Shown here in pieces: positions 1 to 14,410 of a stretch of DNA of 64,000 nt. The stretch comes from Gilliamella sp. ESL0443 (GTDB taxonomy: Bacteria > Pseudomonadota > Gammaproteobacteria > Enterobacterales > Orbaceae). A program made the position numbers and the translations under genes. The stretch is taken from assembly GCF_019469165.1 (NCBI RefSeq), contig NZ_CP048263.1, forward strand, positions 1,364,001-1,428,000, read 5' to 3'. How positions within the stretch are numbered: position 1 is the first letter of the stretch; each line of letters opens with the position of its first letter. Below the pieces are notes generated by a model, which did no database searches, had not been told where the DNA came from, and was given only the letters and a program-made list of their open reading frames with translations.

Positions 1-204
1 ATTTTCATCTAACATCGGGAAAGTAATTTTGCCAGTCAAAGGATCAGCAAATAACAACTTTAAATGAGGACAAATCCAATTTGGATTAACTTCTAAAGGC
101 TTATCACAACTAAAATGTAACCGAAAATAACTCTCTGACGGCCTTTCAACTTTAATCACCGTCAATGAAGCATTAATAATGTATTTTTTTGATTTTTCGT
201 GCAT
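1..204 (-). CDS. Siderophore-interacting protein, N-terminal part (runs off the window start)
   Basis: An open frame on the minus strand starts at ATG 204-202 and stays open to base 1, giving 68 residues. The translation begins MHEKSKKYIIN and contains SYFRLHFSCDKP followed by PHLKLLFADPLTGKITFP. This resembles the FAD-binding front part of siderophore-interacting proteins (ViuB/YqjH type), which release iron from ferric siderophores by flavin-dependent reduction in the cytoplasm; the PHLKLLF pattern is typical. A purine-rich AGAGGAA-like stretch lies upstream of the ATG. The NAD(P)H-binding half would lie outside the window, so the family call is moderate and the exact siderophore cannot be told. 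Confidence 0.6.
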   Translation of the reverse strand, partial: MHEKSKKYIINASLTVIKVERPSESYFRLHFSCDKPLEVNPNWICPHLKLLFADPLTGKITFPMLDEN

Positions 205-294
205 TTGGTGTTCTCTTCTATTCCTCTAATATCGCATCACTATCATACAACATAATTGGTATAAAAAAGGGGAATTTTTAATCGCGGGAAAGAG

Positions 295-319
295 AAAAAA
301 AACCACCCTAAATGGGTGG
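295..319 (-). terminator. Rho-independent terminator of the fsa gene
   Basis: Stem arms 303-308 (CCACCC) and 314-319 (GGGTGG) enclose a 5-nt loop. On the minus strand the hairpin is followed by a run of eight U. It lies about 20 bp past the fsa stop codon. Confidence 0.85.
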
Positions 320-340
320 AACCTAAATCAATAGCAAGTA

Positions 341-1003
341 TTAAAAACGTAAGGCTCCAAACGCCCCACACCAATCCTGATCGAATTTAACCACCGCAGC
401 ATCGACGGCAGGATCTGAAATAAACAGCTCCGCCACATCCACCGGCAACGTAATTGACTGACAACCGGCAAGCATACAATCTAAAGCTTGTCTTGGCGTT
501 CTAAAACTGGCTGCTAACACCATCGATTCAGGGCAATGCAAATCTAACAGCGCTTGTAGCTCATAAACCGTATCTTTACTATTACCACCTTGGGCATCAA
601 TACGGTTGACATAAGGAGCAATATATTTTGCACCAGCAAGCGCAGCCAAAAAGCCCTGACCCGCACCATAAACGGCCGTACCTAAAGTTGGAATACCCTG
701 CTTGGTCAACTCCTTAATCGCCATCAACCCCTCGGCATTAACAGGGATTTTAGTCACAATCGATGGAATGACTTTACGAAGTTGCTCAGCTTCCTTAATC
801 ATCTCTTTAGCATTATGAGAAAGCACTTGCGCGAATAACAACTTATCAGAACCCAGCAAATCTTGTAATTCAGATAACAAATCAAAAATTGGCTTACGCG
901 ATTTAGCGACAATACTTGGATTAGTGGTAACCCCCTTTATTGGTAAAATTGCAGCTAAACGCTTAATTGCTGCAACATCGGCTGTATCTAAATATAATTC
1001 CAT
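341..1003 (-). CDS. fsa: Fructose-6-phosphate aldolase (transaldolase-like)
   Basis: The 220-residue product matches E. coli FsaA/FsaB in length and almost throughout: [10 protein letters not shown] at the start, [33 protein letters not shown] with the Schiff-base lysine, [40 protein letters not shown] and [10 protein letters not shown]. The family cleaves fructose 6-phosphate to dihydroxyacetone and glyceraldehyde 3-phosphate, or runs the reverse aldol, in the cytoplasm. The ATG at 1003 is chosen over a GTG at 1009, because AGGAG (1013-1009) sits 5 nt before the ATG and overlaps the GTG. The gene is monocistronic, with its own terminator. A CRP-like site lies about 110 bp upstream and is shared with a divergent AraC-type gene. 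Confidence 0.92.
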
Positions 1004-1113
1004 ACCCACTCCTAATTAAATGCTTAATTGATGAGTAGCATAGTAAAAAAAAATTTAATTCAAGCCTAGAAGACAAAATTTCTATTTACTGGACTTTTGT
1101 ACGATAAATAGCA

Positions 1114-1135
1114 AAATGCGATCTCGATCACATTT
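1114..1135. promoter_or_regulatory. Near-consensus CRP (cAMP receptor protein) site
   Basis: The core TGCGA-TCTCGA-TCACA is flanked by AAA and TTT. Across 22 positions it differs from the ideal CRP palindrome at only two. It lies between fsa (minus) and an AraC-type gene (plus), about 110 and 100 bp from their start codons, so it could serve either or both promoters. Confidence 0.75.
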
Positions 1136-1235
1136 TTAATAATAATTAATAACACATTAAATTAAATAAATTTTTCAACTTTAACTCTACAAGCTATAAT
1201 TAAACAAACTGCACATTACTTGGTTTACTAACAAT

Positions 1236-2090
1236 ATGACCACAAACCTAAAAAACGTATTAACTCAGCTCACTAACCAACAAATCAACCACCTCTATTT
1301 TGCCAATAACCAACAAACGGCACCGCTACATGCTTATCAAGTTGATTTTCCGAGGATCGAAGTGATTATAGAAGGTCAACAGCTTATGCAATGGGCTGAC
1401 AGCAATGGCAAAATAATGACACAACAACTTGAAGTTAATGATCTGCTCTACATTACCGCTAACAGTTGGAACAAACCTATCCGCACAACCCCAATCACCT
1501 GGTTAAACATCTTATTTGGCAAACAGCAAATTGGCATCAGCATTGTTTATTGGGACGGTAACCAATTAATTCCGCTAGCACAAACCAACATACCAAGGCG
1601 AGGTCCACGAGTTGGCACCTTTATTATTCAAGCGCTATCTGAATTGACATGGCAAAATCAACCACAAACGCAAACCGGCTACTACTTGATTCAAAGCCTG
1701 CTTAGTAACACCCTAGATTTACTTAATGCCGACATAAAAACCGCATCAAAAACCACCAGCTTATTCGAAGCAATACGCCAATATATTGATACTCATTTTC
1801 GGGAAGATATAAGCCGTGAATTTCTAGCTAAAATGTTTTATATCTCACCCAACTATTTATCCTATCTATTCAAAAACGAAGGCAAAATTGGCTTAAATGA
1901 ATATCTCAACCATATCCGGATAGAGTACGCAAAATCACTACTTAAAGATTACGACTTAAACGTCAAAGAAATCTCGCTTGAAGCGGGTTTTAAAGATAGT
2001 AACTACTTTTGCCGAATTTTTAGAAAAAAAACAGAACGAACACCCACTGAATATCGACGGCAATATCATAGTAAATTATCGGAAAAGTAA
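1236..2090 (+). CDS. AraC/XylS-family transcriptional regulator
   Basis: This 284-residue protein has an N-terminal effector/cupin-like part (about residues 1-165) and a C-terminal two-HTH AraC DNA-binding domain (about 180-280). The C-terminal domain shows the usual marks: YISPNYLSYLFKNEGKIGLNEYLNHIRIEYAKSLL and ISLEAGFKDSNYFCRIFRKKTERTPTEYRR. The second helix-turn-helix (AGFKDSNYFCRIF) is canonical. It is divergent from fsa, with a CRP site in the shared 230-bp gap, so it probably responds to a sugar. The effector and targets are unknown. It is not RhaS/RhaR-like in its N-terminal half. A stem-loop with a T run follows 49 bp after the stop. Confidence 0.85.
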   Translation: MTTNLKNVLTQLTNQQINHLYFANNQQTAPLHAYQVDFPRIEVIIEGQQLMQWADSNGKIMTQQLEVNDLLYITANSWNKPIRTTPITWLNILFGKQQIGISIVYWDGNQLIPLAQTNIPRRGPRVGTFIIQALSELTWQNQPQTQTGYYLIQSLLSNTLDLLNADIKTASKTTSLFEAIRQYIDTHFREDISREFLAKMFYISPNYLSYLFKNEGKIGLNEYLNHIRIEYAKSLLKDYDLNVKEISLEAGFKDSNYFCRIFRKKTERTPTEYRRQYHSKLSEK

Positions 2091-2138
2091 ACTCAGTTAA
2101 TTGAAAGTAAGACAGAAGTTTCTAATTGCAAGCAATTA

Positions 2139-2171
2139 AGGAGCCCAAAAACCCCGCTCCTCAACTTTTTT
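2139..2171 (+). terminator. Terminator after the AraC-type gene, overlapping dispersed repeat copy A
   Basis: AGGAGC (2139-2144) pairs with GCTCCT (2156-2161) around an 11-nt loop and is followed by CAAC and six T. The downstream arm and T run belong to the dispersed 26-bp repeat; the upstream arm is unique flank. Confidence 0.55.
2146..2171 (+). repeat. Dispersed 26-bp repeat, copy A
   Basis: This unit begins CAAAAACCCCG, has CTCCTCAAC in the middle and ends with six T. The same unit occurs at 6577-6602 (identical), 7607-7632, 35687-35712 (inverted) and 49337-49362. Function unknown. Confidence 0.85.
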
Positions 2172-2296
2172 ACTATAAAAACAAAAAAATTAGTCCTAAT
2201 CAAGACGGTGTTTTAAACACTTCAAGTCAACTATCTAACGGACTTATTGCTATCTCCAGTTTATTTACTCAAGTAATATGAACTATCGAATAAAAG

Positions 2297-3832
2297 TTAA
2301 GGAGAAACACAAAGTCCGTTGTAGTTGCGAGATCGGTCCACGAATAGCGTATTACCGTAGTACGAGCCCACAACAAACGGCTGATTATATGTAGGATTGG
2401 TATCAACTGTCCAATAATTTTTAAAGGAAAAATTGGCTTGTGAGTAATTTTTCATCAATCCCCACTCGGTAAAAAATCCTGCGCCGATTATACGCTGATA
2501 ATAATTATCGATTGAAGAAGGAGTTGCACCGACTGAACCTCTACATTCATTATTTAAAGTACTATTTTCAGCACAAAAAGCATTAGTTAAATCTTTAACC
2601 TTAGGAACTTTGTAACCGATACGTTTACACCAAGATAATGTATTAGCATAATTGTCTTCAAAAGTACCTCGGTTGATGAACCACTGCTTTAACTCAAACC
2701 CATACTTAACAACTTCATTACCTTGGCTGTCACGACCGATTAACTCGAAAGTCTGAGGTAAGGAGGGGCTTGGTATATTTCCAGGATTTTTAGCTCTCCA
2801 TTGTGATGAAGTTGCAACAGGGCCAGTTAATGTAACACGAATCCCTGTATTTGATGAATTTGTCATAGTAGCGGTAATACCGCCATGGGAGACCGTATCC
2901 CAAGTTAATGGCTGATGATTACCAGCAATAATTAAATCAAAAAACAAATTGTTAGCGCCTGTAGTGGGGAAGTTTAAATTATAAGATGACGAAATAAAAG
3001 ACTGTGGAATAAAACCCTTATCAGTTTTCCACATAGTAGTTGGACCAGCATAACTATAATTACCGTAAGTTGTATCTGGCTTGGCAAAACAAACCGTTGG
3101 CAATTCTTTAGGATTAATATGATAAGTAACACTATTAGCATTAAAAGTACTACTATTAGGAATGCCATAACGAGTAGTTAATGTTCCACTTGTATTAGCT
3201 AATGTAACACGATAAGAACCATTACACAGTGATGGCACTGTATCACGTGATAAGAATATATAGTCTTCATCAACAATATACAAATTTAGGTCACCAGTAA
3301 CTGAAACATCAGCATCTCCATCATCATCGCTCCAATAATTAAAAGGCGCAGCAATAAGAGTATTCAAACCAACTGAATAGCTATTCCTTGGCATTAACAT
3401 ATCAATATCAGAAAAGCTTTGACCAGCTACAGGCAATTCAATTGGGATTGTTGACGAATTATTTGTTGAAGGTGTGTATTTATCCCCATTAGAAAGAGAT
3501 ATCCATAACAGATCGTCAGTATTGATGGCTCGCGTGCGCCCTTCATCAAATGTTAAATAAGGCGCATTCCCTTGAATCGCATTTGATGTTATAGAAGTTA
3601 ATGCATCACAAGAATACGAAGTTATAAACAAAAAGCCATACGACAAAAGCATTTGGCGAGATAATATGAAAGCATAATATAATCGTTTGGAAGATATTTG
3701 CAATGATCTACATAACGATCTTAAAATTTTGACGATTAATAAACTAGAGTTAAAAAAAAGACTTTTTGAGCTTAAATTAAGTAAGTGTAAATTATAAATT
3801 GAACAGATTTGGTCTTTGAAATTGCATATCAT
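2297..3832 (-). CDS. Secreted adhesin-like protein, full-length paralogue 1
   Basis: The 511-residue protein opens with a long basic N-terminus (about residues 1-60). A hydrophobic signal-like segment ending near SYSCDA (about 61-76) follows. Then come a repeat-rich beta-type ectodomain and a C-terminal domain of about 120 residues with a cysteine near its start (LSWCKRIGYKVPKVKDLTNA) and one three residues from the end (GLCVSP). An acidic stretch, WSDDDGDADVSV, may bind calcium. The ATG at 3832 is supported by AAGG 8 nt upstream and by the matching MxxNF start hidden in the paralogue at 4725. The C-terminal domain recalls the C-type-lectin-like tips of invasin/intimin proteins, but no beta-barrel translocator is present, so surface attachment is unexplained. 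Exact function is unknown. Confidence 0.6.
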   Translation of the reverse strand: MICNFKDQICSIYNLHLLNLSSKSLFFNSSLLIVKILRSLCRSLQISSKRLYYAFILSRQMLLSYGFLFITSYSCDALTSITSNAIQGNAPYLTFDEGRTRAINTDDLLWISLSNGDKYTPSTNNSSTIPIELPVAGQSFSDIDMLMPRNSYSVGLNTLIAAPFNYWSDDDGDADVSVTGDLNLYIVDEDYIFLSRDTVPSLCNGSYRVTLANTSGTLTTRYGIPNSSTFNANSVTYHINPKELPTVCFAKPDTTYGNYSYAGPTTMWKTDKGFIPQSFISSSYNLNFPTTGANNLFFDLIIAGNHQPLTWDTVSHGGITATMTNSSNTGIRVTLTGPVATSSQWRAKNPGNIPSPSLPQTFELIGRDSQGNEVVKYGFELKQWFINRGTFEDNYANTLSWCKRIGYKVPKVKDLTNAFCAENSTLNNECRGSVGATPSSIDNYYQRIIGAGFFTEWGLMKNYSQANFSFKNYWTVDTNPTYNQPFVVGSYYGNTLFVDRSRNYNGLCVSP

Positions 3833-4229
3833 AACAAATACCTTATCAATTAAGTTTTATTTAAATTTTTATTTTTATCTACTGCTCCTTAACTAACAAT
3901 AACTTCTCATTAAAATACTACTTACTAAACTGCGAGTAAAGGATAAAAATCTCCCACCCTATGCGCAATGTATTTCATTACTAAATAATTAATACTGTAA
4001 CATTCTATCTTACAAATAGACATTTTAACAATGAGAATTGTGATTTTATAATACAACACATTCGTCAATAAAATCCATCATAGCCTAAAGGCCGATTATT
4101 GATATGCTTTACAAAATCGTTTTTTAACGCTTGGCTACATTGACTCTTTGAGTCAGCTAACTCATAACAACTTAAGGCTATATTTTCTCAACCACCTTCA
4201 TTGAGCTTACAATTAGGCACAGCAAAACT
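3833..4229. other. Gene-free stretch between adhesin paralogues
   Basis: About 400 bp of AT-rich sequence. It sits where the missing body of the truncated middle paralogue would be, but only a few codons past its nonsense stop (SFAVPNC, minus strand) can be followed before a second stop. It probably also carries the promoter of the gene starting at 3832. No RNA gene was seen. Confidence 0.5.
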
Positions 4230-4544
4230 CTAACCTGTAGCAGGGAAAACGATGGGGGTTGCAGATGAAGAATTGGTAGAAGGCGTATATTTAACACTAT
4301 TAGATAACGTAATACCGTTCAGATCATTTGTATCAACCGTTCGAATACAACCATCATCAAACGTTAAATATGGAACATTACCGTGGATAATATTTGAAGT
4401 TTGTTTGGTTAATGCATAGCTGGAAAAAAAGACAGACAGCAAAATAGCTAAAATAGTCTGCCTGAATAATTGAGGAATTATCGCGTTTGAGATCTCTTGT
4501 ATAAACGCCTTAAAAACATGCAAAACATCGGCATTTAACTCCAT
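4230..4544 (-). pseudogene. Truncated adhesin-like paralogue 2 (nonsense mutation and deletion)
   Basis: The 104-residue frame has a signal peptide (IPQLFRQTILAILLSVFFSSYA) and the first part of the ectodomain (NIIHGNVPYLTFDDGCIRTVDTND). It closely parallels NMIHGNPPHLTFDGGRTSTLD in paralogue 3. The frame ends at TAG in the context PATG-stop-SF, where the intact paralogues read G-Q-S-F; a CAG to TAG change would explain the stop. Past it only a few residues continue before another stop, and the remaining ~350 codons are missing. A short secreted peptide could still be made, but this looks like a gene remnant. Confidence 0.75.
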
Positions 4545-4724
4545 TTAATTTATAATATATATTTGCAATTAACATAGTGATTTGATTTATTTTATTTTTA
4601 TGCCTTCTGTTTCATCTTTTAGCCATTAAGCTAAAATTGGGTAAAAAGTATAATCGCCACCCAAAATTGGATTTTTCAATTCGTTAACGAATATACTTTT
4701 TATATTTCCACCTCGCTAATGGCA

Positions 4725-6119
4725 CTAAGGATAAGTGCAAAACCCTACCGATTTATCATACGAGGGTTCAGCCCAATGTATATGACCATCTGTAGGAAAA
4801 ACGACGAACCGACTCAAACTTTTTTCATCACTGGTCCAGTACCATCGGACGGCGTCAAAGTTGGTTCGATCATATTTGCCTATATTACCCCACTCCGCAA
4901 GCAAGCCTGCACCAATTGTACGCATATAATAATCACCTGATGATGAAGGTGTACCACCAGTAATTTCATAACGTTTTGCATTAGTTAAATCTTTAACTCT
5001 AGAAAGGCGATAACCAATACTTTTACACCAGGATTCCATGCTAGAATAGGTGTAATAGCTTTTACCTCGGTTGACAAACCATTGTTTTAATGTAAAACCA
5101 TATTTAACGATAGCTTTACCTTTACTATCTCGACCAACTAACTCGAATGTCTGAGGCAAAGTAGGCTTAGTAATAGGACCTGGATTGCCGGAATTCCATT
5201 GGGATTGAGTTGCAACAGGGCCAGTTAAGGTAACTCGTGCGCTTGTAGCTGTAACATCAGTCATAGTAGCAGTGATACCACCATGCGAAACAGGAGCCCA
5301 AGATAGTGCCTCAGTATAACCAATCCGCAAATCAAAGAACATGTTGTTAGCTCCAGTAGTTGGAAAGTTTTTACCATAATCTAATGGGTTAGTTGACTGA
5401 GGGAAAAAACCAAGAGAAGGATTGAAAATTTCAGGAGGACCTGCTTTTACACCACCCTCTCCCTCATAAGATAAGCTTGGGCTGACAAAACAAATATCAA
5501 TACCCACAGGTTTGACATAATAAGTGACATTATTGGAATTAAGACTACTACTATTTGGAAGACCATAACGAGTGCTTAATGTACCACCTATAGCCTCTAA
5601 TACAATCCGATAAGGTGCACCACAAGACGTTAGCACTGTATTGCGCGATGATATAGTTCTACCGATTCTATCATAGATAGATAACCTTAAAAAACCAGAA
5701 ATATTAATATCACCATCACCATCATCATCATCCCAATAAGGAAGTAGAATTCTGTCTAATTCGACTGAATCTTCTCCTCTTGGGATGAACATATTTATAT
5801 CAGAAAAGCTTTGACCTTTAGCAGGTAACTCAATTGGTGTTGAAGATGATGAAGTATTGGTTGTAGTCGTGTATCGCTTTCCGTTAGATAACGTAATATT
5901 GAGCAGATAATCAAGATCAAGAGTACTAGTCCGGCCACCATCGAAAGTTAAATGCGGTGGATTACCATGAATCATATTCGTGGTTTTAGAGGTTAATGCA
6001 TGGCTAGAATAAAAAGGTATTAACAAAAAGCCAAGCGGTAAAAAGATCTGCCGAAATAATTTAGATCTGAGAGTTGATCGGAATGATCTAAATGACGATC
6101 GAAATAACGATCGGTGCAA
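4725..6119 (-). CDS. Secreted adhesin-like protein, paralogue 3; ATG out of frame (putative phase-variable)
   Basis: From the weak TTG at 6119 the product has 464 residues: an arginine/serine-rich lead (RSLFRSSFRSFRS), a signal segment (IFLPLGFLLIPFYSSHA), an ectodomain with WDDDDGDGDINISG, and a C-terminal domain with paired cysteines (SWCKSIGYRLSRVKDLTNA ... GFCTYP). It is paralogous to the gene at 2297-3832. The open frame continues upstream from 6119 to a TAA at 6296-6294 without any ATG, GTG or TTG, and the translated upstream part (YNLNSPNLNSKPLFF) still aligns with paralogue 1 (YNLHLLNLSSKSLFF). The homologous ATG, with AGGA 9 nt before it, is at 6262-6260 in another frame, separated by a GTTGCCT tandem repeat. 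As sequenced, translation from that ATG stops after 19 codons. The true CDS probably spans 4725-6262 when in phase. Confidence 0.65.
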   Translation of the reverse strand: MHRSLFRSSFRSFRSTLRSKLFRQIFLPLGFLLIPFYSSHALTSKTTNMIHGNPPHLTFDGGRTSTLDLDYLLNITLSNGKRYTTTTNTSSSSTPIELPAKGQSFSDINMFIPRGEDSVELDRILLPYWDDDDGDGDINISGFLRLSIYDRIGRTISSRNTVLTSCGAPYRIVLEAIGGTLSTRYGLPNSSSLNSNNVTYYVKPVGIDICFVSPSLSYEGEGGVKAGPPEIFNPSLGFFPQSTNPLDYGKNFPTTGANNMFFDLRIGYTEALSWAPVSHGGITATMTDVTATSARVTLTGPVATQSQWNSGNPGPITKPTLPQTFELVGRDSKGKAIVKYGFTLKQWFVNRGKSYYTYSSMESWCKSIGYRLSRVKDLTNAKRYEITGGTPSSSGDYYMRTIGAGLLAEWGNIGKYDRTNFDAVRWYWTSDEKSLSRFVVFPTDGHIHWAEPSYDKSVGFCTYP

Positions 6120-6222
6120 CGATTCACTATGCGATCTTAAATTTTCGTCGAATAATAAACCGGAGTGAAAAAAAAGAGGTTTAGAGTTTAAATTTGGTGA
6201 ATTTAAATTATAGGTTGGCCAA

Positions 6223-6247
6223 GTTGCCTGTTGCCTGTTGCCTGTTG
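6223..6247. repeat. Heptanucleotide tandem repeat (GTTGCCT), 3.6 copies, at the start of an adhesin-like gene
   Basis: Three full GTTGCCT units plus GTTG lie between the ATG at 6262-6260 (minus) and the adhesin-like frame. Because 7 is not a multiple of 3, gain of one unit or loss of two would fuse the ATG to the long frame; the present number does not. Confidence 0.9.
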
Positions 6248-6542
6248 AAAATTGTAATACATATTCGACTATCCTGTCAAGTAAATTTTTGATTTATTTA
6301 CTATTTTATGTTTGTTGATAAAATTTTAGCTATTCAGCTAAATTGATCCGAAAGTATAATAACTGGAAAAATATGACGCAATAAATTTTTTACTTTATAT
6401 TGTTAACTTTTGTAAATGCGATCAAAAAAAGATCCAAATAATTATTTGCTAAATTTGGGTTTAATTGATAAATATCAACTTTATAAATCTTTAAAATTAT
6501 AGTTTTTAATCCAGAGAAAATTTAATTTTATTTAATTTTTGT

Positions 6543-7526
6543 TTATTTATTGATTTCTAGGTAGAGATTTAAATGCCAAAAACCCCGCTCCTCAACTTTT
6601 TTGATTATCATTTTTCGCTCTTCTTGATCAAAAAACGTCCACGCAACAAAACGGCTAATTTTTTGTCCTTGAGCCATAGAGACAATTTTATATTCAGTTG
6701 CCACTTTTAGTTGTTTTTTTATTTTGCTTAGCGTCTCTTTTTTCGATACCAATGAGGTAAACCACAGGCATTGCGTTTTGTATTTGATACTCTCTTTTAT
6801 CATTCTAGTGATAAATGCACTTTCACCCCCTTTGCACCAGAGTTCAGCGTGTTGTCCACCAAAGTTGAGGATGAGATTATCTTTCGTTGAATTTACTTTT
6901 CCCAACTTTTTAAGTTTAGTGTAAGCACTTGCATGCGCTTCTTGTTCGGAGGCGTGAAAAGGTGGATTGCATAGGGTAGCTAGGTAAAATTCTTTAGGTT
7001 GAATGATATTTTCAAAAATAGCTTCGTTGTCAGGTTGTAAGCGACATTGTAATGTGTTTTTTAATAGATCATTAGATTGTGCTATCAATGAAGCAACTTT
7101 TATTGATGTTGGATTGATATCACTACCAACAAATGACCAACCATACTCTGCACAACCAATAATTGGATAAATAATATTCGCCCCAACCCCAATATCTAAA
7201 ATGCGAACCTGTTTACCTGTAGGAATTTGGTTATCTTGCGCTAACAGATCGGCAAGATAGTGTATATAATCTGCTCGTCCCGGAATTGGCGGACATAGAT
7301 AGTTGTCAGGAATATCCCAATACGAAAGTTGATAATAGTGCAATAATAGCGCTTTATTTAGCATTTTTACTGCAGTAGGATCAGCAAAATCAATCGTTAA
7401 CCGTCCATATTGATTAGGCTTTACAAAATTAGATAGCTCGTTCAATGTTTTGATAAGTAAATCAAATGGATAACCATTAATGTGTTTATTGCGGTGGTGT
7501 AAAGCTGTTTTTTTGATTGATTGCAT
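6543..7526 (-). CDS. rlmF: 23S rRNA (adenine-1618-N6)-methyltransferase with unusual C-terminal tail
   Basis: The 327-residue protein shows WDIPDNYLCPPIPGRADYIHYLADLL (residues ~70-95), the SAM-binding DIGVGANIIYPIIG (~111-124), the N6-adenine methylase motif NPPF (187-190), LNFGGQHAELWCKGGE and MAQGQKISRFVAWTFF. It methylates one adenine of 23S rRNA using S-adenosylmethionine. The E. coli enzyme ends soon after the RFIAWTF block. Here about 20 extra residues follow, of which 309-317 (KKVEERGFW) are encoded by a copy of the dispersed 26-bp repeat. The repeat seems to have entered the 3' end and replaced the original stop. Confidence 0.92.
   Translation of the reverse strand: MQSIKKTALHHRNKHINGYPFDLLIKTLNELSNFVKPNQYGRLTIDFADPTAVKMLNKALLLHYYQLSYWDIPDNYLCPPIPGRADYIHYLADLLAQDNQIPTGKQVRILDIGVGANIIYPIIGCAEYGWSFVGSDINPTSIKVASLIAQSNDLLKNTLQCRLQPDNEAIFENIIQPKEFYLATLCNPPFHASEQEAHASAYTKLKKLGKVNSTKDNLILNFGGQHAELWCKGGESAFITRMIKESIKYKTQCLWFTSLVSKKETLSKIKKQLKVATEYKIVSMAQGQKISRFVAWTFFDQEERKMIIKKVEERGFWHLNLYLEINK
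6577..6602 (+). repeat. Dispersed 26-bp repeat, copy B, inside the 3' end of rlmF
   Basis: Identical over 26 bp to copy A at 2146-2171. On the minus strand it is read as KKVEERGF within the RlmF tail. Confidence 0.9.
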
Positions 7527-7606
7527 GGATGATCCAACATAGAGAATTAATCACTATTATAACGTTTTTGAGCAAATTTGTGAAAATAGCGAGAGATTTT
7601 ATGCTT

Positions 7607-7632
7607 CAAAAACCCCGCTTATCAACTTTTTT
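7607..7632 (+). repeat. Dispersed 26-bp repeat, copy C
   Basis: Same unit as copies A and B, with CTTATC in place of CTCCTC (two mismatches). It lies in the gap between the divergent starts of rlmF and the antiporter gene, the only copy located between two gene starts. Confidence 0.8.
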
Positions 7633-7722
7633 TATAATCGTTAAGTTATACGATTGTGGATGATTCGAAAATTAATTTTGAATTTGTTATAATCATCCAC
7701 TTTAAATCCAACCGATAATACA

Positions 7723-9141
7723 ATGAAAAATATAAAAAAGTTTTTGATATTCCCTTTTTTGAGTTTAATGCTTATGTCTTTTGATTCCTATGCGAGTGAG
7801 TTTAATGGACAGGCGTTATCATTACTTTGGGTGATCCCTTTCGTTGGAATTTTGTTATCGATTGCTTTATGTCCACTATTTTTAGCCCGATTATGGCATT
7901 ATCACTACGGTAAAGTTGTTGCCGTTTGGACGTTATTATTTTTGGGGTTTGCACTGGTTTCATTTGGTTTAACGACCACAATTGAGCTAACAGTACATGC
8001 CATTGTTCAGGAGTATATTCCTTTTATATTATTACTTTTGGCTTTGTTTACGGTTTCCGGTGGCATTCTGGTTAAGAGTGATAAAATCAGCACACCAAAA
8101 TCCAACGTTATTTTACTGATGATTGGCGTTGTGCTTGCTTCAATTATGGGAACAACTGGCGCTGCGATGTTGATGATTCGTCCACTACTTCGAGCTAATC
8201 GTCAACGACAGTATGCTGTACACACGGTAATATTTTTTATCTTTTTAGTTGCCAATATTGGCGGTGGATTAACGCCTTTAGGCGATCCACCGTTATTTAT
8301 TGGTTTTTTAAAAGGTGTCGATTTTTTCTGGACAGTTAAGCATATGCTGTTGCCTGTTGTGTTTACATCTGGGTTATTGCTAATTATTTATTATTTTATC
8401 GATCATTACTATTACGTTAAGCAGTATGGTGTGAATAGCAATCCAATTAGTGCTAAGCCTGTTAAGTTATATGGTCTAAATAATCTTGTATTATTATTGG
8501 CTATTATTGCTAGCGTGATTTTGTCTGGTGTGTGGCATTCATCGATAAGTTTTACTATTTTAGGTTCACAAATCGCATTACAAAATTTAGTTCGTGATGG
8601 TCTTTTTATTGCTATTACGATAATTTCAATAATGATTACCCCAAAACAAGTTCGAGCAGGCAACGAATTTAATTGGGAGCCGATAAAAGAGGTTGCTAAG
8701 TTATTTATTGGGATTTTTATTACTATTGTACCTGTGCTGGCGATTTTACGTGCGGGTAATGATGGTGCGTTGGCTTCGGTCATTTCATTGGTGACTAATG
8801 ACCAAGGTGCGCCAATAAATAGTATGTATTTTTGGTTATCAGGATTGCTATCCGGATTTTTAGATAATGCACCAACTTATCTGGTCTTTTTCAATCTTGC
8901 TTCGGGTAATGCTAGTAGCTTAATGACGACGTTTGAAAGCACTTTACTGGCCATTTCAATGGGCTCGGTATTTATGGGCGCTTTAAGTTATATTGGTAAT
9001 GCCCCTAACTTTATGGTTAAAAGCATTGCAGACCAAAATAAAATCAATATGCCTAGCTTTTTTGGTTATATGAAGTGGTCAATCGGGATTTTGATTCCGG
9101 TTTTTATTATTGATAATTTGGTGTTTTTTGTGTTTTTTTAA
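7723..9141 (+). CDS. nhaD: NhaD-type sodium:proton antiporter
   Basis: The 472-residue inner-membrane protein has a signal-like N-terminus and about 11-12 membrane segments. Recognisable stretches are GTTGAAMLMIRPLLRANRQR (~143-162), NIGGGLTPLGDPPLFIGFLKGVDF (~178-201), SGFLDNAPTYLVFFNLA and GALSYIGNAPNFMVKSIA, which are typical of the NhaD/ArsB-like ion transporter superfamily. NhaD proteins exchange Na+ or Li+ for protons under salt or alkaline stress. No partner gene is next to it. An inverted repeat (CCCCAAG/CTTGGGG, 9163-9196) follows the stop, but with a long loop and no T run. The symbol rests on family resemblance only. Confidence 0.75.
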   Translation: MKNIKKFLIFPFLSLMLMSFDSYASEFNGQALSLLWVIPFVGILLSIALCPLFLARLWHYHYGKVVAVWTLLFLGFALVSFGLTTTIELTVHAIVQEYIPFILLLLALFTVSGGILVKSDKISTPKSNVILLMIGVVLASIMGTTGAAMLMIRPLLRANRQRQYAVHTVIFFIFLVANIGGGLTPLGDPPLFIGFLKGVDFFWTVKHMLLPVVFTSGLLLIIYYFIDHYYYVKQYGVNSNPISAKPVKLYGLNNLVLLLAIIASVILSGVWHSSISFTILGSQIALQNLVRDGLFIAITIISIMITPKQVRAGNEFNWEPIKEVAKLFIGIFITIVPVLAILRAGNDGALASVISLVTNDQGAPINSMYFWLSGLLSGFLDNAPTYLVFFNLASGNASSLMTTFESTLLAISMGSVFMGALSYIGNAPNFMVKSIADQNKINMPSFFGYMKWSIGILIPVFIIDNLVFFVFF

Positions 9142-9216
9142 GAAATGACTCTTTTTAGAATTCCCCAAGCAAAGTGCGTATTATTTTTACTTGGGGTGAA
9201 TGTTAATTAGTCTTAT

Positions 9217-10379
9217 TTAAAAGAAATATTTAAAACGGACCCTTGCACCATAACGATTATCGTTACCTCCTCCTTGTTTTTCATCGCGCTCTAATCTAGA
9301 TAAGTAAGTCCCTAAATAGATATTGAAGTTATCCATATCCATCACATTTGAAATTAAGTATGAGGCATTGACAGTATGTAATTTATATTTACCTTTAGCA
9401 TAAATTTCACCATCACCTCGATAATTTGTATTAAATGCTTTTATATCATTGGCAGCATAGATGTAACCAAGACCAATACCTTTCCAAATACCATTGATAC
9501 CCGCGGTAAAATCTTTTTCTTGTTCGGCATCTAAATAGGAGATGCTGCTATTGAGCAGTAATCCCTCAGATGATTTATCAAAATCACCTGCACTATTCCA
9601 ACTCATCGTTAAGCCATACCCATTACGTTTTGACTGATCATGCCATTTGCCGTTTATATCATGATAAGCGTTATTAACAACATTACGCTCCATTGCTAGA
9701 GCTGCTGATATATCATTATTTCGGTAGGATATGATGGGACGTAAGTAAACGACGTTTTTATCTTTTTGCAATTTATATCCATGATAACGGCTATGATCAA
9801 ATAAGGAGGTACCATCTTTTACCATTGCATTAACTTGCAAGTTCAAATCCCCCAACTCTTTGGTTAATTCGATTGCACCGCCGTTACTGCTACGCCCTCT
9901 ACCCTCTTTCATCATATAGATGTAACCACACTATATAAATCGTTGGCAGTATTGCCAGAATATTCTATGAAGGTATCTTGCCCAAGTGGGAACATGTCGT
10001 AAGCTTCATAGCGACCAATTCGTAGGCGCCAATCATCTTTTTTACCAAAATAGAAACTAGCATCATCTAGGTTAACTTTACCTCCCATATCAGCAAGCGG
10101 TTGCACCGAGAATCCTGCATAGTTCTGATTCGCTAATTCTCTTTTCCCATCCAAGCCGAATAAAATACGGCCATTTATATCCCACTGATCTGTGTCATTA
10201 GCATCAAAGTCTGCCGATGTTCTAAGTGAGGTTAACTGCTTTTTTTTGCTTGCAGCATCAATATTAAATTCGACATCGCCATAAAGTTTAAGTGTTCCTT
10301 GTTCGGTCTGCCATTCAATGGATGCTAATGCGGATAAAGAATAGAAACAGCAGACTCCAGCTATTATTTTTAATTTCAT
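9217..10379 (-). pseudogene. Carbohydrate porin (RafY-like), broken by a frameshift
   Basis: Two abutting frames together make one outer-membrane porin. The first (9912-10379) has a signal peptide ending SALASIEW, then LKLYGDVEFNIDA and FYFGKKDDWRLRIGRYEAYDMFPLGQD. The second (9217-9915) continues with MMKEGRGRSSNGGAIELTKELGDL and ends KYFF, with the C-terminal phenylalanine usual for outer-membrane barrels. The junction is at ACATCTATATGATG. Adding one base between TC and TAT would join VVTS to YMMKEGRG and restore one frame. It is last in the GH78-symporter-porin run, so its likely role is rhamnoside entry through the outer membrane. It could be a true mutation or a sequencing error; two separate peptides would not form a normal porin. 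Confidence 0.75.
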
Positions 10380-10405
10380 CGTTATTTCCTTTTAATGTAA
10401 ATTGA

Positions 10406-11760
10406 TTAAACTTTTTGTTCATCATTAAGATTTCTGGCATCTAATTCAGCTCGAATTGAAGTATAACTGTCATCAAGTTTGTAGAACTTAGCTATCCAAA
10501 TCATCGAGGCAATAATTAAAATGGCAGGTAAATATAAGTAACAGAGTTTGATTGCAAAAAGCGCACTTGGTACTTGAACTGCATTGGCAACATATCCACC
10601 AGATGAGAGTAAAAAACCGGTAATAGCACCAGCGCCAGCCATCGCCACTTTGCCAAAGAATCCATTGATTGATGTCAAAATTCCAGCAGTATTAATACCG
10701 GTTTTCCATACACCATAATCAACCGGGTCAGCCTGCATTGAAAAATAGATAGCAAGGCGTTGCCCAGCACCGAGTGATAAGATAACCGCGCCGATGATAA
10801 GACCAAGATGATTCACGCCCGATAACATCATTATTCCCATACCAATTAAGTTGATAGCGCTTGAAAATAGATAGACATGTCGTTTTTTCATCTGATTGGC
10901 TAAGAATGGTACGGTAAGTGTGCCAATTAAGGGGACGAAAGTTGATATTCCCGCAATTATTGCGGTAAGGTTTTCGCTTTGGACGTAATAGTTGAAGAAA
11001 TAGACTAAGGAGCCAGTTTGTAAAAAGAATGCGCCCCACATAAGAAAGATGTTAGTTGCAAAGATTTTCCATGGGTTGTTGTCTTTAAACCTTTCCATGC
11101 TCTAGTTAAGGTCATTCGCTCTTGTTGTATAGTGATTTTTTCCTCAACATTTTTAAAACTGACTATCAGAAAGAAAGTCGCAATAATCCCAAAAACAATA
11201 GCGGTATATAAAAAGCCATGTGTTTGATCACCATTTCCCAATGTCGCAACTAGCGGTAATGTTGCCACTGCAACAATCGTTGAACCTAAGGAACCTAATA
11301 AAATTCTTACTGAAGATAAGGTTGTTCTTTCTAATGAATCCGCAGTTAAAAATGGCAACATTGCACTAAATGGTATATTGACCAAGGTATAGATAAAAGA
11401 GAGGCAAAGATAGGTGATAAAGGCATAGATTAGTTTACCTGTCGTACCAAAATCAGGCACATAGAAAACTAAAATACACAATATGCCAAACGGTATTGCG
11501 CCGATTAATAGCCATGGACGACAACGTCCCCAACGTGTGGATGTATTATCGATAACTAAGCCCATTAAGACATCAGCAACACCATCAACCAGCCGGGTAA
11601 CTAAAAACATTAGACCGACATAATAAGCGGGTAGTGCCATTACGTCCGTATAAAAATACATAAGATATAATGAGATTAATTGCCATACTAAATTACAAGA
11701 TAAGTCAGCAATCCCATAACCTATGCGTTGCCGCCAAAGAGAAAATAATGAATTGACCAT
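10406..11760 (-). pseudogene. GPH-family sugar:cation symporter (MelB/YicJ-like), broken by a frameshift
   Basis: The N-terminal frame (11005-11760) carries RIGYGIADLSCNLVWQLISLYLMYFYTDVMAL and DNTSTRWGRCRPWLLIGAIPFG, the signature of glycoside-pentoside-hexuronide:cation symporters. The C-terminal frame (10406-11098) supplies the remaining membrane segments. They overlap out of phase near 11084-11098. Restoring one T in the minus-strand GGTTTAAAG run gives TRAWKGFKDNNPWKIFATN, a natural join and a protein of about 450 residues, the usual family length. Placed between a GH78 rhamnosidase and a porin, it probably imported a rhamnose-containing glycoside across the inner membrane. As sequenced it is not functional. 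Confidence 0.8.
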
Positions 11761-11785
11761 TTTTTTATTCCTTATAAATTTTTAG

Positions 11786-13354
11786 TTAAAGTTTATTTTG
11801 TCGAATAAACCAAGCCGGTGTGCAACTCCAAGCATGACAGTAGCTATTGATGATTTTGCTACCATACGGTGAATAATTAAGGTCGTTTGGATCAAACAAT
11901 TCCCAAAATGTGTCTGCCCCAAATTCGACCATTTTTCCCCAATATGCTTTAATCTCATCAATGGCTTGTTGTTTCATGCCTGTTTTGAACAAGGCTAAGA
12001 TGTAGTGATGTCGTAAGTAAGGCGTGTTCATGCCGATTTCTGGTGGAGTTGTTATTAATTGGGTTAATAATTTTTGTTGATGAGCTAAATCGCCTACATC
12101 AGCTAAAACCATCCAAATTTGTGTGGCGTAACTAATTTGTTTTTGTTCGCCACTGGTGTAAAAACCGGCTTGCTCGTCCCATAATGTTTGTGCTGCTCTT
12201 TTAACCAAATCTAATTTTTGGTTAAGCGCCTGAGTTATATCAGGTTGAAAATGTTGGGAAAGTCGACATGCTTTGTCTAAACAGTAAATTAAAACACCTT
12301 GAGAAGCGCCTTGTTTATTGAGTTTTTCGTGCCAATCAATAAATGACCACCAATCATCACTATCTTGAACTAATCCTTGCGCGTCACAACGTTTTAGATT
12401 TATTTCAATTTGCTGTAATGCGATCGGCCATAGCTCTTTAACCGTTTGTCGATCATTAGTTTGATTAAAGTAGTCGTAAAGGACATCGACAAAAAGAAGT
12501 GAGTAATCAAATAAGAACGTATCGTCAGCAATAATGTCAGGTTTAACAAAGACATTAGAGGAAACCAGACCATCTTCCCGACGATGGCTAGCAAAGAGGT
12601 ATAAGCATCTGCGAACTAAATCGTGCTGTTGAAAAGTGACGTTGTTCACTAGGGCTTGTAAGCGTAAATCGCCTAACCACAGTCTTCTATCTCTTTTCGG
12701 TCCATCCTCGAATACGTCTTGCATACAATTTCGAAGCGTGTGAATGGAGACTTGATCTATCTTCGCTAATAGCGGATCTGATGATTGATAGCTAAGACAG
12801 TGTTCTGGTGCTGAACTGACTGTGTTAAAAGTGATATCTTTAAATAAAATTTGGTATTTAGGCGATAGTGAGACAATATCTATTTTTAAGTATCGAAAAC
12901 AGTAGCGTCGAGATAAGTTGATTTTAGCGGGTAAAATATCAATGTACTCATCATGCTGTTGTAACCAGCTTTTGCTAAGCCAACCTTGATATTGACTGAA
13001 TGGTTCAGCAATTTCACACAGTGTTTCACCAAATGTTAATTTTATATGCGCAGGCGCATCAGGAGGGCTACCAGTAGATTCGCACAAGAAAGAGAGGTAA
13101 CCAACATTGTGTTGACCAAAATCAATTATAAAACTATCACCTGAATGAAAACTCTGATTGAGATAATCATTTGCATCACTCACTATTTTTGATGACCAAT
13201 GATGAATAGCACTTGGATCATTGATGAGCGAAATAATCTTTTGGGGTGAGATCTTTTTTTGATAAATCTTTGGTTGTAATTGCTTTGCTTTCAGAATAAA
13301 TGCATTATCTTTTACCATAACTGCATCAATATTTTTTTGAATTGCTTGTGCCAT
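11786..13354 (-). CDS. GH78 family alpha-L-rhamnosidase, short form
   Basis: The 522-residue protein contains an N-terminal beta-domain part (FIIDFGQHNVGYLSFLCES, LTFGETLCE) and an (alpha/alpha)6 catalytic part from about residue 200. The hallmark is EDGPKRDRRLWLGDLRLQ (~222-239), the GH78 motif with the catalytic acid region, followed by DDWWSFIDWH and a C-terminal GADTFWELFDPNDLNYSPYG. The family removes terminal alpha-L-rhamnose from plant glycosides. It has no signal peptide, so it would act in the cytoplasm on imported rhamnosides. It is first in a minus-strand run with the symporter (25-bp gap) and porin, and divergent from an AraC-type gene. Linkage specificity cannot be told. Confidence 0.85.
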   Translation of the reverse strand: MAQAIQKNIDAVMVKDNAFILKAKQLQPKIYQKKISPQKIISLINDPSAIHHWSSKIVSDANDYLNQSFHSGDSFIIDFGQHNVGYLSFLCESTGSPPDAPAHIKLTFGETLCEIAEPFSQYQGWLSKSWLQQHDEYIDILPAKINLSRRYCFRYLKIDIVSLSPKYQILFKDITFNTVSSAPEHCLSYQSSDPLLAKIDQVSIHTLRNCMQDVFEDGPKRDRRLWLGDLRLQALVNNVTFQQHDLVRRCLYLFASHRREDGLVSSNVFVKPDIIADDTFLFDYSLLFVDVLYDYFNQTNDRQTVKELWPIALQQIEINLKRCDAQGLVQDSDDWWSFIDWHEKLNKQGASQGVLIYCLDKACRLSQHFQPDITQALNQKLDLVKRAAQTLWDEQAGFYTSGEQKQISYATQIWMVLADVGDLAHQQKLLTQLITTPPEIGMNTPYLRHHYILALFKTGMKQQAIDEIKAYWGKMVEFGADTFWELFDPNDLNYSPYGSKIINSYCHAWSCTPAWFIRQNKL

Positions 13355-13603
13355 ATTCTTCTCCTATAGAAAACATTTAGGAGTATAGCTATGCAAAACA
13401 AAAGCTAGCCACTAAGATACTGCCAGATTGCGTTTATAAATGGCAATATTAAAAAGCTTATACCGAGCAAGTTCACATTTTTAAGAATATTATTTTTTAT
13501 CTCATGTTTAATTACTTTATTGTATTTATATGACGGATAAAAATTGTCTTTTATTTAACGGGATACCTTGATAATAAGTTACCGTTGTAAGGATATAATC
13601 AAT

Positions 13604-14410
13604 ATGTATACTTTAAAAATTGACACTTATTTTAATCATAAATCAGATAAATTAGCCCTTTATAAGAGTGACCCTGAGGACAACGGTTGCGAGCATAATC
13701 ATGAGTTCGATGAGTTAGTGATTGTTGAGCACGGTCATGGTTTACATGTTATTAATGGTAAGCCGTTATTTATTCAACAAGGTGATGTTTTTTTAGTTAG
13801 AGGGCATGATTACCATTTTTATGATGATCTCGGAACGCTAAAGCTAACTAATATCCTGATTAATCCCAATCAGAATTTTACTTTTTTGAAGAATATGGAG
13901 GAGCTATTAAGGCCTATCTCCGCAAGTGATTTAAGTTCTTATATTTGGTTAGCGCCTAATATTCGTAAAGAGTGTAATTCTGTTATTGATCAGTTATTTA
14001 ATTTAAATAATTCAATTGAGCATCGTGAGTATCTGTTTTTTAAATTGCTTGTTATCATTAAGCAATATCAACGTCAGTCACAACAAAATAATACCCGCTA
14101 TAAACTCCATCTTTTGCTTAACCATCTTCAAGAAAATTGCTTTGATGAATATGATTGGAACAATATAGCGCAAACATTTCATTTAACAACACGTACAATG
14201 TTTAGGCATATTAAACAAGCAACCGGCCTAACTCCTGAAAATTACATCAGACGATTACGGTTAATGTCAGCAAGATTAAAGATTAGAGAAAGTGATATGA
14301 CTATTACCGAAATATCATTACTTTGTGGTTTTGTTAATAGTACTCATTTTACTACACTGTATAAAAAAACGTTTGGTATCACGCCATCTGAAGAGCGAAA
14401 ATTTAACTAG
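13604..14410 (+). CDS. RhaS-like AraC-family regulator of the rhamnosidase operon
   Basis: The 268-residue protein starts MYTLKIDTYF at 13604, with AAGGA about 11 nt upstream; a frame-extending start at 13568 has no such site. The N-terminal cupin carries HNHEFDELVIVEHGHGLHVINGKP and RGHDYHFYDDLGTLKLTNIL, very like the rhamnose-binding half of RhaS. The C-terminal AraC domain has WNNIAQTFHLTTRTMFRHIKQATGLTPENYIRRLR and ISLLCGFVNSTHFTTLYKKTFGITP. It is divergent from the GH78-symporter-porin genes and probably activates them in response to rhamnose or a rhamnoside. It is a third RhaS/RhaR-type protein beside the pair at 15580-17276. Confidence 0.82.
   Translation: MYTLKIDTYFNHKSDKLALYKSDPEDNGCEHNHEFDELVIVEHGHGLHVINGKPLFIQQGDVFLVRGHDYHFYDDLGTLKLTNILINPNQNFTFLKNMEELLRPISASDLSSYIWLAPNIRKECNSVIDQLFNLNNSIEHREYLFFKLLVIIKQYQRQSQQNNTRYKLHLLLNHLQENCFDEYDWNNIAQTFHLTTRTMFRHIKQATGLTPENYIRRLRLMSARLKIRESDMTITEISLLCGFVNSTHFTTLYKKTFGITPSEERKFN

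Follow-up and report, generated by a model that had tools for sequence, protein, structure and literature searches.

An adhesin-like gene in the genome of Gilliamella sp. ESL0443 is separated from its start codon by a short heptanucleotide tract that leaves the two out of frame (OFF). The initial annotation of the stretch analyzed here (64,000 nt, hereafter the window) had recognized in this arrangement the layout of slipped-strand phase variation, and that suggestion is supported by its recurrence at 123 loci, where reading frame tracks copy number and near-identical pairs of genes differ by 7 or 14 nt. We consider it probable that these tracts mediate phase variation, at the level of translation, of a large set of adhesins, almost all of which rest OFF, one repeat unit from ON.

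The out-of-frame gene and its protein family

The gene (4725–6262, minus strand) is assigned by its open frame, its family membership and the predicted fold of a paralogue. Its long frame is open from 6293 to a stop at 4725, is bounded by a TAA at 6296–6294, and contains no ATG, GTG or TTG ahead of a TTG at 6119. The ATG at 6262–6260, whose homologs are in frame in tract-free family members, lies in another frame, nine nt downstream of a Shine-Dalgarno (SD)-like AGGA (6275–6272), which SD counts in the family also support. The initial annotation had given this layout, and every position held on rechecking. The tract, (GTTGCCT)3.6 at 6223–6247, spans 25 nt at 100% match and comprises three full copies and four bases of the coding-strand unit AGGCAAC. 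Translation from the ATG gives MYYNFQQATGNRQLGQPII, 19 codons followed by a stop. Because the distance from the ATG to a conserved YNL motif is 50 nt (2 mod 3) here as compared to 36 nt in the intact, tract-free paralogue (2297–3832, minus strand), in which the ATG is in frame (ON), gain of one unit or loss of two restores the frame, as had been proposed; loss of two gives exactly the length found in the paralogue. A third family member, a degraded fragment with one internal TAG and 54% identity (4230–4544, minus strand), sits between the two genes.

The tract is the sole perfect period-7 tract of at least three copies in the window, and none arose in 30 Markov simulations. The exact 21-mer (AGGCAAC)3 occurs 13 times in the 2.40-Mb genome, a single contig, while its reversed control occurs 0 times; those occurrences that were read lie directly 3′ of the start codons of family members. 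These counts, together with the absence of period-7 tracts from 200 kb of gene body in our first set of sequences, rule out a chance repeat. The AGGCAAC tract is absent from the 34 other Gilliamella species searched, and the early impression of a one-species curiosity was given up once different units turned up at this position elsewhere in the genus. No copy of the tract was found in the viral contigs searched, and no family homolog in the plasmids searched.

The family occupies 31 tblastn places in the window genome, has members in 31 of 35 congeneric genomes and in 37 of 44 genomes of the taxonomic family, and reaches 58–59 matches in one genome; its named relatives are from Gilliamella. 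Pfam, NCBIfam and PDB sequence-profile searches returned no family for the protein, and fold comparison alone was informative. A structure model of the ON paralogue, with a mean pLDDT of 62, only six sequences in its alignment and a poor N-terminal half, matches the C-terminal tips of invasin (1cwv; Z 13.2 over 183 residues) and intimin (1f00; Z 12.1 over 175 residues), and the protein is thus predicted to share with them the Ig-like and C-type-lectin-like fold of the adhesive tip. The label “adhesin-like” therefore stands as a deduction from fold. Unlike invasin and intimin, the Gilliamella protein is small (about 440 mature residues) and has its own signal peptide, and no inverse-autotransporter beta-barrel was seen in Pfam and NCBIfam searches, the N-terminal half of the model being poor. 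Variability among paralogues peaks at the lectin-like tip, which makes up the final 50 residues; identity there falls to 0.29–0.50 in each of five genomes (G000, which is the window genome, G009, G013, G014 and G017). As a dN/dS of 0.75 was also obtained for pairs of OFF genes in G014, this pattern suggests diversification of the presumed binding face.

Repeat number and reading frame across Gilliamella

Our main survey covered 205 family ORFs in 30 genomes, each from a different Gilliamella species. A perfect 7-nt tract follows the ATG in 123 of these, with 19 different unit sequences spread over more than 10 species; 7 have a 4-nt tract, 72 are tract-free, and for 3 no start region was available. 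In the first set of sequences (159 ORFs, 30 genomes), 103 tracts of period 7 were counted in the start regions, whereas no other period reached more than 4. With a further 20 stretches added later, in which one in-frame case has unknown bases inside the tract, the totals come to 126 period-7 tracts with 21 units, along with 8 tracts of period 4, 4 of period 8 and 1 of period 9. Two neighboring copies in one genome (G032:C15:25729 and 27877) carry at the same position an octanucleotide tract, CAAAAAGC, of 2.5 copies, and are in frame.

As expected of a translational contingency locus, these tandem tracts lie in the 5′ part of the coding region and have units whose length is not a multiple of three, and an in-frame or out-of-frame start codon follows from their copy number (n). 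All 7 loci with n=2 are out of frame, as are 109 of the 110 with n=3, of which 108 share one offset while a locus in G031 has the other; in the single in-frame case (G000:745411) an extra C in the tract restores the frame. Five of the six loci with n=4 are in frame, and the sixth, in G021, has different flanks. Of the 72 tract-free members, 65 start in frame at an ATG or GTG, counted by a lenient rule that requires an SD-like element, and the remainder include a few that are truncated or have another start type. In the 4-nt members the start codon is followed by (GCCA)13–27 or (AGCA)22, and all three frames are represented (G010:C84, C36 and C78; G004:C43); with their long and variable tracts, these members look like classical tetranucleotide contingency loci. 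The pattern as a whole, tract-free and 4-nt members included, supports the view that translation truly begins at the ATG and is gated by the tract.

Close relatives also differ in copy number, by exactly 7 or 14 nt in near-identical pairs, as at contingency loci. G030 and G031, two genomes with 99.8% identity across 2.5 kb, are distinguished by one 14-nt indel (two units) at the tract; this is the only between-genome pair at near identity, both states are out of frame and both assemblies are incomplete. Within single genomes, paralogues with the same flanks have n=1 (ON) and n=3 (OFF) in G034 and G028, n=4 (ON) and n=3 (OFF) in G015, and n=3 and n=2 in G013.

The OFF genes are maintained. Median dN/dS of OFF–OFF pairs is near 0.4 in four genomes, 0.29 in G034 and 0.75 in G014, and ON pairs are similar at about 0.4, a comparison weakened by saturation and gene conversion; judged by this ratio, OFF genes are conserved like ON genes. 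The initial annotation had allowed that efficient initiation downstream of the repeat would undo the case for a switch, and this is argued against by the survey: none of the 117 OFF loci has an in-frame start with an SD match between the tract and the core of the signal peptide. Some ATG, GTG or TTG is present in this interval in 37 of the 117, and weak, leaky starts may thus occur, such as the TTG at 6119 in the window gene.

The proposed switch, the three-copy tract and competing explanations

In the switch that we propose, the reading frame would depend on how many 7-nt units separate the ATG from the remainder of the gene. With n=3, as in the window gene, or n=2, a ribosome starting at the ATG would stop after about 14–36 codons and no adhesin would be made. 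At n=1 or n=4, translation from the ATG would instead continue in frame through an extended signal peptide and then the entire secreted Ig-plus-C-type-lectin-like protein. Slippage or recombination between units would change the copy number, so that cells of one population could switch and surface adhesion in the bee gut could diversify. Across the genus, the diverse paralogues of a genome would number as many as tens, most of them resting at n=3 and needing one more unit to become ON.

In the sampled genomes this copy number is nearly constant, unlike that of classical contingency loci. Three copies are found in 110 of the 123 tracts and are the commonest value in 23 of 27 flank clusters, and n is never 5 or more; a constant three-copy tract, which the initial annotation had named as evidence against a switch, is thus nearly what is seen across paralogues. 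Only 6 of the 123 tract-bearing members are ON, as compared to the one third expected under free slippage, a deficit for which a nominal p-value overstates the evidence because paralogues share ancestry. No genome in the main survey has more than one such member ON, and the later batch adds one more in G021. No imperfect, mixed-unit tracts were found in the tract-free members searched, and homogeneous tracts with different units sit in similar flanks, which suggests that tracts turn over yet return to three. Three may be the shortest OFF tract still able to gain a unit and become ON at n=4; an n=2 tract, in contrast, would lose a unit and end at n=1, where no further slippage could occur. The preference for three would be explained equally well by a mutational bias that stalls at that number. 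We advance only tentatively, as rather less likely than the switch itself, the idea that three copies are a set-point at which selection or mutational bias keeps each adhesin gene silent but one unit from expression, so that nearly every sampled genome has at most one tract-bearing member ON.

The upstream regions supply the best mechanistic rival to a translational switch. SD matches are perfect (4/4) in 80 of 123 tract loci and in 44 of 65 tract-free loci. Upstream alignment identifies a putative promoter, TTGCGT-N17-TATACT (6353–6381, minus strand), conserved ahead of most tract-bearing members of the genome, where it has the form TTGCAT-N17-TATACT about 100 nt upstream, and an inverted repeat, TTTAGCT-gaat-AGCTAAA (6325–6342, minus strand), which is also found in most of these members and presumably lies in the 5′ leader; an Rfam search of window positions 1–14000, the inverted repeat included, gave no match. 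The same alignment places a second promoter-like element, TTGACA-N18-TACAAT (6251–6280, minus strand), astride the ATG, where it could be an alternative promoter or a by-product. In the family its counterpart, TTGACA-N18-TATAAT, is perfect (12/12) in 74 of 123 tract loci, as compared to at most 10 at upstream control positions. Were this element, with a spacer of 17 or 18 nt, a real promoter, the transcript would start within the tract, the ATG would fall outside the mRNA, and the tract would act on transcription or in the leader. We judge this very unlikely, because the hexamers decay (scores 7–12) in tract-free members that keep the ATG, SD and frame, and because tract loci in G017 show TACCAT or TATCAT rather than TATAAT; also against it are the other conserved promoter-like element upstream in G000 and the absence of SD-preceded downstream starts from OFF loci.

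Translational switching must also be weighed against the possibility that the three-copy genes are a silent archive, stably OFF and used mainly as gene-conversion donors for expressed members, with the tract serving as a lock. The prevalence of n=3 and the rarity of ON members are compatible with this, as are the conserved 5′ regions of paralogues (identity around the ATG of 0.92 in G009 and 0.89 in G017) and the 10 tract-free in-frame members of G000. We nevertheless find it unlikely: near-identical genes, ON and OFF members among them, differ by whole units, the 13–27-copy tetranucleotide tracts of the same family resemble classical switches, and 19 units, all in perfect tracts with no imperfect one among them, imply repeated turnover. 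There is a still slimmer chance that programmed −1 frameshifting makes n=3 the expressed state; 108 of the 110 three-copy loci would need the identical −1 shift, but canonical slippery heptamers are present in only 4 of 117 OFF loci, and tract-free, n=1 and n=4 relatives require no shift. An assembly error or simple pseudogenization, which the degraded fragment adjoining the gene might suggest, has almost no likelihood given that n=3 occurs at 110 loci in independent assemblies and that the long OFF frames are intact with a dN/dS of about 0.4.

Relation to known systems and further features

A close parallel to the proposed translational switch is neuO of Escherichia coli K1, which encodes a capsule O-acetyltransferase, is carried on phage CUS-3, and undergoes phase variation through a heptanucleotide, AAGACTC, with 3–53 copies across genomes and 20 the most common (PMC13001214). 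In both systems a 7-nt unit is repeated in tandem near the 5′ end of the coding sequence, and its copy number modulo 3 decides full-length translation; unlike neuO, the Gilliamella loci are chromosomal and belong to a family that can number tens of adhesin-like genes, with three copies and about 20 different units. A switch of this kind is already known, and the large scale and near-fixed copy number are what is unusual. Haemophilus influenzae has many tetranucleotide contingency loci, and its hmw1A and hmw2A genes have 7-nt repeats in the promoter, with 13–38 copies (PMC2651432). There, as in Gilliamella, repeat number alters the frame or expression of surface proteins, and the (GCCA)n members are closely similar, whereas the Gilliamella 7-nt tracts differ from the upstream hmw tracts in being intragenic, short and near-constant. 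The opa genes of Neisseria are likewise a set of paralogues for surface proteins, and every one has an out-of-frame repeat within the gene; this repeat, the pentanucleotide CTCTT, lies in the signal sequence and its copy numbers are larger and variable. The Gilliamella unit is instead 7 nt, its copy number near-fixed, and the protein of a different fold from the beta-barrel of Opa. A literature search for phase variation, slipped-strand mispairing or simple sequence repeats in Gilliamella, with most subscription papers lying outside its reach, returned nothing relevant.

If this reading is correct, a core symbiont of the honey bee gut would have a large set of potential frame-switch genes, in which tens of diversified adhesin-like proteins in a genome would each have a separate tract as gate. 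Most descriptions of contingency loci come from pathogens facing adaptive immunity; as the host here is an insect, attention turns to phages, competing strains or host glycans as the source of selection. The near constancy of the tract at three copies would likewise offer a testable puzzle on the maintenance of short repeats, and annotation pipelines would be expected to mis-start or drop tract-bearing genes.

Some members of the family in the window genome are arranged in tandem, and the second and third members of such clusters lack both the upstream promoter-like element and the tract. There, clusters near 725–727 kb, 844–848 kb and 1489–1494 kb have a first gene with the promoter-like element and tract, followed by genes without either that yet keep an SD and an in-frame ATG. 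Because only the first gene carries the two elements, its OFF state might lower expression of downstream genes by polarity.

The N-terminal coding regions of the family are also rich in GATC in the window genome, with 3.45 sites per 220 nt as compared to 0.26 in the body, often at 12-nt spacing; seven sites within about 90 bp (6045–6136) make up the densest 120-bp stretch of the window. Such enrichment was not seen in family genes of G009, G014 and G017. The sites encode Arg-Ser repeats, 73 of 89 RS pairs being coded through GATC, and the cluster could reflect either Dam-linked control or a by-product of 12-nt duplication.
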